In this document: one piece after another, positions 50,490 to 53,120 of the stretch
How positions within the stretch are numbered: the stretch's first letter is position 1
Layout of the letters: each line of letters begins with the position of its first letter
Translations under genes and position numbers: made by a program
Assembly: GCA_013334335.1 (NCBI GenBank)
Contig: JAAXXR010000005.1
Location: forward strand, 1-64,000
Length of the DNA: 64,000 nucleotides
Source: Chlorobiaceae bacterium
Lineage (GTDB): Bacteria; Bacteroidota; Chlorobiia; Chlorobiales; Chlorobiaceae
Reading direction: 5' to 3'
The notes under the pieces: model-generated
The model's database searches: none
What the model saw: only the letters and a program-made list of their open reading frames with translations
What the model was told of the DNA's origin: nothing

Positions 50490-52565
50490 ATGAGACAACA
50501 CCCCATCCCCTATCTTCTGTTCATCTCTCTTGCAGCAATTCAGCCGTTGCTCTCCTCATGCAACTGGAACCCTGAAGGCGCCGATCCGGCGGCACTTTAC
50601 CGGGAGGCCGCGCAGCTGTACCGGCACAGGAACTACCCGGAAGCGCTCGAAACCTTCAACAGGGCTATCGGCATCGATACCCTGAAGGGATTTCCGAAAC
50701 GAGCCATTGACGCGCTGCAGCTCAAGAGCCGTATCGAGTATATGACCGGGGAGTATTACGAGGCGTTCAGAACCTTTAGTGCACTGGAGCGCCATGCGGG
50801 ACGGACGATGCCGGATTCCCTCCATGCGGACATGGAGCTCAGCCGGGCGCGGATGTACGCAGAACTCGGCAATTTCAGGCAGGCGGCGTCCGTCATGGGA
50901 CGGATACGGCAACCCGATGCGTGGCAGCGCCTTCAACAGGCGGAATTCTGGAAGAGAGGTGGGGCCTGGGCCGAAGCCGCAGCGGTGTATAAAGGTCTTG
51001 CCGTAGCAGAGGACCCCGCGCTCAGGATCGTGGCGCTTGCCGGGCTTCTGGACTGTTCGGTCGCGAGGCGGGATCTCCGGCTTGAAACCCCCGATGCCTA
51101 TGCGGGGAAGATTGCGGCCATCTCCGGCAGGGTCATGTCGATGCAGGCGGAGCCGACGGTGCGTATCCGAGCGCTGCGTATTGCCGCCAAGAGCCTCCAG
51201 CTGCTTGAAAAACAGCGTCCGAACGCAAGTTTCCTGCTCTTCAGAGCGCTTGCCACCGCCCAGCATGCCGGGCTGGCGCGCCTGGACCAGATCCTCCAGT
51301 ACGAGTCGAATGCCGTCATCGTCCGGAAGCCAGACGTGTACCGGAGCGTGATTGAATACTTTGGCCAGAGGAATATGCCCTATGCACGGATGGCCGCGAT
51401 GTTCAGGCTGGGGATGAGCCCTGAGCTCACCGACGCCGAGCGGATCGATGCCCTGAAAGGCGGCCTGCAGATCGGTCAGAATTACCTCATACCATTCACT
51501 GCTACTGCCGATATCCTCCTTGAAAACGAGAGTGTCGGCACCCTCGAGGAACTGCTGATTGCCAACAACCGCTATTTCGAACTCTTCGAGGTGAGCGAGC
51601 AAGCCAAGCTTTTCGATCTTCAGCGGGAGATGCAGGCCTCCGCGATCAATTTCAGGCTTCCGGCAGGACATGAGTCACTGCAGCGCGAAATCATCGAACT
51701 GAATCGTGAAATTTCGGGACTTCTCCAGAGAAAGATCAATATGGTCGAAGAGGGATCCGGTTTCGAGCTGTCGGGCTTGGCCGACAAGGCGATCAGCCGG
51801 AAGCGAGGACGGTTGATCGAGCTTGAGTCCGAGGTTTCAACCATCGACAAGGGGCTCGCTGCGCTGCTCCGTCCGACTCCGGTCACCATGATGACACTCC
51901 AGAAGAGCCTGCGCCCCGACGAAGCGCTCATCAGGCTCTTCATCAGGGACAGCCTCGCCACCAGCATGCTGATCAGCGGACGCGAGATGCAGATCGCGGT
52001 GTCTCAGGTGCCCGGATATCAGGTCAGAACCGGGATTGACGGGCTCCGGAAATCCCTCGAGGATGGCGGCCCAGGCGCTGCGGACCGACTTGCTTATGAT
52101 CCACAGCGGCTCTGGCTGACCGATATCCTTTTACGCTCCCTCGGGGAACATCTCTCAGGATACCGACATCTGCTCTTTGTCGCCGACAGTCCGATTCCCA
52201 TGCATCTTCTCGGCTACGAACGGCTGCTCGGAACAGAAAAACGCATCTCCATTCTTGGTTGTGCCAAGGAGGCCGCCATCTATTCAGTGGATTCCGCCAC
52301 GTCGGGGCAGACACCTGGCATGGCGTTTTTTGATGCTTCACGTCCTGATCTGGCGAGGATATACAAGATGTTTCATTCGTCTGATCGGGTATTTTTGCTC
52401 TGGAAACCCATGTCGAAGGGTGAACTTGCCGATCTCGAAAAGATGCTGGCTGTCCACTTGAAGCGTGACGGGTCTGGCTCCGGGAGCCTCCGGCGGCTTG
52501 CTGCCGGAGAGGGCGCCTTGCCTGATTCCAGGTGGGTCAACATCTCCTCTTACGGGATCGATTGA
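50490..52565 (+). CDS. TPR lipoprotein with degenerate CHAT domain
   Basis: 691 residues from ATG 50490. The signal ends in LLSSC, a lipobox, so the mature protein is probably lipid-anchored. Helical TPR-like repeats follow (YREAAQLYRHRNYPEALETF and others to about residue 400), then a coiled-coil-like stretch, then residues 459-691 matching the CHAT peptidase fold: LRPDEALIRLFI, RLWLTDILLRSLGEHLSGY, LLFVADSPIPMHLLGYERLL, and near the end VFLLWKPMSKGEL. The middle part that carries HLACHG and the Cys of the dyad is missing between 52342 and 52385. So it is probably a protease-dead CHAT. Followed by a RodZ-like gene. Confidence 0.72.
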   Translation: MRQHPIPYLLFISLAAIQPLLSSCNWNPEGADPAALYREAAQLYRHRNYPEALETFNRAIGIDTLKGFPKRAIDALQLKSRIEYMTGEYYEAFRTFSALERHAGRTMPDSLHADMELSRARMYAELGNFRQAASVMGRIRQPDAWQRLQQAEFWKRGGAWAEAAAVYKGLAVAEDPALRIVALAGLLDCSVARRDLRLETPDAYAGKIAAISGRVMSMQAEPTVRIRALRIAAKSLQLLEKQRPNASFLLFRALATAQHAGLARLDQILQYESNAVIVRKPDVYRSVIEYFGQRNMPYARMAAMFRLGMSPELTDAERIDALKGGLQIGQNYLIPFTATADILLENESVGTLEELLIANNRYFELFEVSEQAKLFDLQREMQASAINFRLPAGHESLQREIIELNREISGLLQRKINMVEEGSGFELSGLADKAISRKRGRLIELESEVSTIDKGLAALLRPTPVTMMTLQKSLRPDEALIRLFIRDSLATSMLISGREMQIAVSQVPGYQVRTGIDGLRKSLEDGGPGAADRLAYDPQRLWLTDILLRSLGEHLSGYRHLLFVADSPIPMHLLGYERLLGTEKRISILGCAKEAAIYSVDSATSGQTPGMAFFDASRPDLARIYKMFHSSDRVFLLWKPMSKGELADLEKMLAVHLKRDGSGSGSLRRLAAGEGALPDSRWVNISSYGID

Positions 52566-52697: not shown

Positions 52698-53120
52698 ATG
52701 ACAGATGAAGTTTCCCCTGGCGGTTCGCTCGCGCAGCTGGTTCGTAAGCTGAAAAACGAGCGGCTTAACAGACAGCTGTCGATCGAAGAGATGAGCCAGA
52801 TCGTCAATTTCAGCGCAGCGCATATCGAAAAGGTCGAGGCCGGGGACTTCACCTTCCTTCCACCCTTGTACGTCTTTTCATTCCTGAGGAAATATGCCGC
52901 TGAGCTCGGTGTCGGCGACGAGCAGCTCCTGGCCCAGTGCCGCAACGAACTGAACGCTCCCGATCGACCTTCGCTCCAGTACGATGCAGCTGCGCCAACC
53001 GAGAGCGACCGCGCATCCTCCCACTCCTCGATACTCCCCATCGACAACTGGAAGTCGTTGGCCGTGCTCGCCGTGCTGCTCATTCTGGCCGCGGTGCTCC
53101 TGTTTTCCCTTGCCCGATGA
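52698..53120 (+). CDS. RodZ-like helix-turn-helix membrane protein
   Basis: 140 residues. The N-terminal HTH_25 fold (about residues 8-75; RLNRQLSIEEMSQIVNFSAAHIEKVEAGDF and SFLRKYAAELG) resembles RodZ and related cytoskeleton-linked proteins. A single TM helix follows near the end (SLAVLAVLLILAAVLLFSLAR). The periplasmic domain of full RodZ is missing. It follows the TPR-CHAT gene by 132 bases; TATAAT at 52632-52637 is a promoter-like element without a good -35 partner. Confidence 0.8.
   Translation: MTDEVSPGGSLAQLVRKLKNERLNRQLSIEEMSQIVNFSAAHIEKVEAGDFTFLPPLYVFSFLRKYAAELGVGDEQLLAQCRNELNAPDRPSLQYDAAAPTESDRASSHSSILPIDNWKSLAVLAVLLILAAVLLFSLAR

Follow-up and report, generated by a model that had tools for sequence, protein, structure and literature searches.

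The lipoprotein gene

What remains of a TPR-CHAT protease when its catalytic core is missing, and what could such a protein do in the envelope of a green sulfur bacterium? The question is raised by a gene at positions 50490–52565 (plus strand, stop codon included) of the window, the 64,000-nucleotide stretch of Chlorobiaceae DNA analyzed here. The initial annotation had described its product as a TPR lipoprotein with a CHAT domain that seemed to have lost the His-Cys core, and had proposed that it could serve as a sensor or scaffold beside a RodZ-like protein. The coding sequence of this TPR/half-CHAT lipoprotein specifies 691 amino acids and begins with a signal peptide and the lipobox LLSSC (50490–50561, plus strand), in which Cys24 is the predicted lipidated residue. 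Judged by its sequence, the product is thus a putative bacterial lipoprotein, with both a signal peptide and a lipobox Cys. C24 was unchanged in 28 of 28 aligned homologues, and the lipobox was seen in every member whose alignment spans the region, and the position of the reading frame and the predicted lipid anchor stand as annotated. An antisense open reading frame of 371 codons (window 50556–51671, minus strand) lies opposite the lipoprotein gene and is probably a mirror-frame artefact of a G+C-rich gene.

Residues 33–386 (50586–51647, plus strand) are predicted to form an alpha-helical TPR-like superhelix. The Pfam search gave a TPR_2 match with an E-value of 1.1e-3 in the window protein, below the cut-off (19 versus 27 bits), and of 1.2e-7 in the best family member. 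In the AF2 model the helices occur in pairs, with pLDDT mostly 75–89 across residues 31–200, which is consistent with the description as a TPR-bearing lipoprotein. A helical linker (residues 395–458, 51672–51863, plus strand) seen in the AF2 model, which falls within the profile alignment to CHATs, precedes the CHAT-derived domain. This domain comprises residues 459–600 (51864–52289, plus strand) and is followed by a C-terminal tail (residues 601–691, 52290–52562, plus strand), which occupies the place of the missing His-Cys core and has a predicted beta-alpha-beta-alpha-alpha-beta arrangement. The AF2 models were weak, with a mean pLDDT of 64 for the full-length protein and 58 for its C-terminal region (six-sequence alignments).

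Homology to the N-terminal half of CHAT

The Pfam CHAT model, PF12770, was not among the families listed for the 28 family members even at E<=10, and searches of Pfam, NCBIfam and PDB sequences with the window protein or the family returned essentially TPRs only. Because the Pfam model is blind to this family, the CHAT reading needed testing by other means. A family HMM run over whole genomes retrieved five open reading frames (G109, G152, G074, G146 and G060) at E-values of 1e-12 to 3e-7, with matches at profile positions of about 356–606, and all five were scored independently as CHATs by PF12770. Profile-profile comparisons of the family with CHATs gave probabilities of 98.6–98.8 and E-values of 5e-16 to 5e-17; the hhalign comparison of the C-terminal columns of the family with 31 PF12770 CHATs gave 98.8 and 5e-17. 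The real hhalign score was 135. Sixty column shuffles averaged 15.1 (standard deviation 2.5, maximum 24.4), and the reversed profile scored 17.5. The annotated CHAT homology is accordingly real despite the silence of PF12770.

The securely aligned stretch begins in the helical linker, near residue 400, and ends near residue 600. It includes LRPDEALIRLFI, which starts the three-strand hairpin, LLFVADSPIPMHLL, which corresponds to LiIvPdg.lpFeaL, and ISILGCAKE, which corresponds to IsYlpSas. Three outer CHAT segments had originally been listed as retained; two of them, LRPDEALIRLFI and LLFVADSPIP, are securely aligned, whereas the equation of the third, VFLLWKPMSKGEL, with SLWPVDD lacked statistical support. 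By profile comparison, the C-terminal region is homologous to the N-terminal half of TPR-CHAT proteases. In the profile alignment, the retained region precedes the HG motif, and it would therefore correspond to the pseudo-caspase half, CHAT1; this assignment draws on the alignment and the published description. Fold searches placed Craspase TPR-CHAT chains at an E-value of 1e-4 with the full-length model, amid TPR matches, and at 1e-2 with the domain model, ranked below actin-like matches. These matches are compatible with the CHAT1 reading but not decisive.

Loss of the His-Cys core

Beyond the shared stretch, intact CHATs run on through LPxTxxEv, ATE, HfAtHG, LVVLSACxTG and SLW to a closing WAPFVLxG. 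The family retains only about 90 residues beyond the IsYlpS strand; its full-length open reading frames encode about 700 amino acids, and the C-terminus is short in all family rows. The His-Gly and Ser-Ala-Cys strands were missing in every aligned member, in four families of the order. C24 of the lipobox was the only conserved Cys, and the last 300 residues were free of Cys in 20 of 28 members. The sole invariant His, H572, lies in the N-terminal half within 'PFHLLG' and aligns to 'LPFeaL', not to HG. A dyad hidden elsewhere in the protein was also considered and rejected, as none is conserved and C24 is the sole conserved Cys. Loss of the dyad, suspected from one sequence, is thus common to all relatives aligned, and the protein appears to be a protease-dead CHAT derivative. 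When the window genome was searched with PF12770 for an active CHAT partner, no CHAT was found.

Invariant residues do exist (H572, D109 and Y688-G689) and might suggest that the protein is an enzyme with a different kind of active site. We regard this as very improbable. The segment around H572 reads 'PF..L' in intact CHATs, and some of these also carry a His at that place; close to H572 there is no evident conserved nucleophile, and profile searches matched no other enzyme family.

How the tail relates to the lost core depends on its register. Taken alone, the last ~85 columns gave no significant alignment anywhere in CHAT by hhalign with shuffles. In the register of the CHAT C-terminus, 81 of 85 columns were used and 12 of 60 shuffles scored as well, which is not significant. 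This register, which implies an internal deletion as read in the initial annotation, is favored by length, by a conserved W and by the closing W...YG, and makes it plausible from the sequence that VFLLWKPM is the SLW strand. Alternatively, the domain could have been truncated at its C-terminus, with WVNISSYG at the HlAtHG strand, Tyr in place of His and the end of the protein just past the former His-Gly. Extended local hhalign paths do follow this HG-strand register, but the tail alone scored no better in it than shuffles (19 of 60 as good), and the CHAT C-terminus is the better fit by eye, given W638 against SLW, the closing W...YG and the S-P-A-E-A-L motifs seen in some sister-genus proteins. 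Truncation is therefore possible but rather doubtful, and it is compatible with the adaptor function proposed below. Whichever register holds, internal deletion or truncation, the dyad is gone.

Distribution, age and selection

Of 41 genomes searched, the window's own among them, 31 contained a homologue. Within Chlorobiaceae the gene was present in 62 of 86 genomes, and named relatives carrying it comprise Chlorobiaceae MAGs, Chlorobaculum sp. 24CR and C. thiosulfatiphilum. All 21 genomes of the window's genus had it as a single-copy open reading frame without internal stops, apart from truncations at contig ends. Elsewhere in the order it occurred in 8 of 12 deeper genomes sampled, in three further families (f2, f3 and f4). 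Beyond the order, the phylum sample (198 genomes in all) yielded only partial matches, which fell on TPRs or intact CHATs. The family formed one clade (support 90/87) among intact and dead CHATs in an unrooted, long-branched tree built from the shared half.

Pairwise dN/dS values from six pairs were 0.08–0.32 and were alike in the TPR part, CHAT1 and the tail. The gene and its shortened domain are kept by purifying selection; the gene is thus maintained, which makes the loss of the core old rather than a sign of decay. That we are looking at a functionless remnant is extremely improbable: 24 of 86 Chlorobiaceae genomes lack the gene and one (G219) has it split, but it is intact throughout the window's genus, contig ends aside, and dN/dS is low. 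The split copy (G219:C17:32221-34273) consists of two pieces in different frames, covering profile positions 9–525 and 535–687, and reflects a frameshift or an assembly error. As the dyad is absent in all aligned members of four families, the history is explained most simply if the core was lost only once, in an ancestor that lived before the order diversified.

Lipoproteins with a full-length CHAT whose catalytic residues are substituted occur elsewhere in the phylum (families f8, f13 and f29). These TPR-CHATs (L145:8151-10931 and L169–L174, one long open reading frame each) mostly have a visible lipobox and keep a full-length CHAT, in which HG is replaced by STEF, STDF and similar sequences and SAC by SNQ, SDE and similar sequences. 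Descent of the present family from them is not favored, as a 99/99 branch separates the two, although the root is arbitrary. Catalysis seems to have been lost more than once in lipid-anchored TPR-CHATs, as read from a tree that is unrooted and has long branches.

The RodZ-like neighbour in Chlorobiaceae

Downstream of the lipoprotein gene lies a gene for a RodZ-like HTH_25 protein (52698–53120, plus strand; PF13413, E 8.8e-13) of 140 amino acids with one terminal transmembrane segment (residues 112–130). A simple scan, which says little, showed no terminator between the two genes. RodZ proper would combine HTH_25, a transmembrane segment and RodZ_C; the window copy lacks RodZ_C, and in the window's genus the protein stops directly past its single transmembrane segment, with no periplasmic domain. 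RodZ_C can occur in the RodZ-like protein of the sister genus (E 2.7e-8), and some genomes of that genus have a second, longer RodZ-type protein elsewhere.

Among the 86 Chlorobiaceae genomes, 53 carried both genes, 9 the lipoprotein gene only, 11 the RodZ-like gene only and 13 neither (Fisher p = 5e-4 for co-presence, relatedness uncorrected). The RodZ-like gene was the next one downstream, 83–316 bp away, in 51 of the 53 genomes with both; in the remaining two, the genes were on separate contigs near contig ends. The co-occurrence anticipated in the initial annotation is therefore borne out within Chlorobiaceae. Its extension to a RodZ-dependent system as a general rule is not supported, because the pair is separable and because the deeper families have the RodZ-like gene elsewhere and a metallopeptidase gene beside the lipoprotein gene instead.

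The main rival to the function that we propose arises from this pair: the lipoprotein could be a sensor that reads the state of the envelope and signals through the RodZ-like protein to the cytoplasm, by way of its HTH domain, or to MreB. The tandem pair is conserved in Chlorobiaceae, and MreB was present in 8 of 8 genomes checked. There is also a membrane TPR/CHAT precedent in DdvA (PDB 8rw5/8rot), a transmembrane anti-sigma factor with a CHAT domain, which was the top fold match of the full-length model and fits the CHAT profile; the fold match had a TM-score of 0.16 and an rmsd of 29 A, indicating local similarity at best. The sensor explanation is weakened by the window's own genus, in which the RodZ-like protein ends after its transmembrane segment and so has no ectodomain for a periplasmic lipoprotein to meet. 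Considering also the genomes with only one of the genes and the lack of a RodZ link outside Chlorobiaceae, we consider it unlikely.

The metallopeptidase neighbour in deeper families

In f2, f3 and f4, the neighbour is a polytopic protein of 731–767 amino acids with several predicted transmembrane segments, HELVH followed by GLxEG, and a C-terminal helical part, as at loci L140:8921-11116, L142:3837-6032, L143:7289-9592 and L144:4174-6369. These motifs suggest a gluzincin-like metallopeptidase; the HELVH protein of G031 matched PF13485 at an E-value of 6.6e-7, under the family cut-off. The gene adjoins the lipoprotein gene in 7 of 8 deeper genomes, and in the one genome checked for overlap (G025) the two genes share 11 nt, with the peptidase gene starting inside the end of the lipoprotein gene. 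A search of 12 deeper genomes of the order detected the peptidase in all of them, and two further genomes of the phylum also have it; in 25 Chlorobiaceae genomes, nothing matched it. Four genomes (G028, G030, G033 and G036) have the peptidase without a detectable lipoprotein, and the pairing is thus not obligatory.

Proposed function

The explanation that we favor, with somewhat better than even confidence, is that the protein is a non-catalytic adaptor or scaffold lipoprotein of the envelope derived from a TPR-CHAT protease. The homology, the missing dyad, the lipobox, the selection and the gene linkage are observed, and the binding, partners and output are inferred. An ancestral TPR-CHAT protease would have kept its TPR superhelix and CHAT1 and lost the catalytic CHAT2 with His and Cys. 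By analogy with LbcA and NlpI, the TPR arc and the CHAT1 surface may bind other proteins in the periplasm. In the deeper lineages, the likely partner would be the polytopic HELVH metallopeptidase encoded next to it. No copy of the peptidase was detected in Chlorobiaceae; there, the conserved RodZ-like membrane neighbour suggests that the protein acts close to the machinery of cell-wall elongation.

A bolder and quite speculative version is that the regulatory half of a protease became a lipid-anchored metallopeptidase adaptor and later acquired a cell-shape partner in the peptidase-less green sulfur bacteria, forming an undescribed envelope system. In these little-studied envelopes, the gene arrangements hint at a pairing of peptidase and adaptor and at a lipoprotein linked to RodZ.

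Comparison with known systems

Active TPR-CHAT and separase proteins are known to contain pseudo-halves of caspase-like proteases. Searches of the open-access literature on inactive CHATs and on CHAT in green sulfur bacteria showed no description of a protein that has TPRs and a pseudo-caspase half only and is maintained across an order. A close parallel to the predicted layout is Csx29 of Craspase (type III-E CRISPR): behind its TPR superhelix stands a CHAT region in which the N-terminal half, CHAT1, is a pseudo-caspase and CHAT2 is the active half (PMC10028731). Csx29 differs in having a catalytic half with a dyad (H585/C627 in the Craspase TPR-CHAT; PMC9729208) and a CRISPR effector as its partner, whereas the window protein has a lipobox, no catalytic half and no CRISPR gene among the neighbours read. 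The half-CHAT family offers a natural test of the role of CHAT1 without a protease. TPR-CHAT proteins of the same phylum detected by PF12770 are homologous to the window protein from the helical linker through the first CHAT half (E 5e-17); unlike them, the window protein lacks the catalytic half and any Pfam CHAT match. DdvA, the top fold match, is likewise a membrane protein containing CHAT, but it is transmembrane and keeps the CHAT His and Cys motifs, whereas the window protein is a predicted lipoprotein without them.

No CHAT-derived domain is known in LbcA or NlpI. These TPR lipoproteins bind periplasmic proteases (CtpA and Prc, respectively), deliver substrates to them and activate them (PMC8764530). 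They act on CTP serine proteases, whereas the neighbour here is a membrane HELVH metallopeptidase, and we claim no sequence relation. What the window protein is predicted to share with them is a lipid-anchored, periplasmic TPR architecture, which in the deeper lineages likewise goes together with a neighbouring protease gene.
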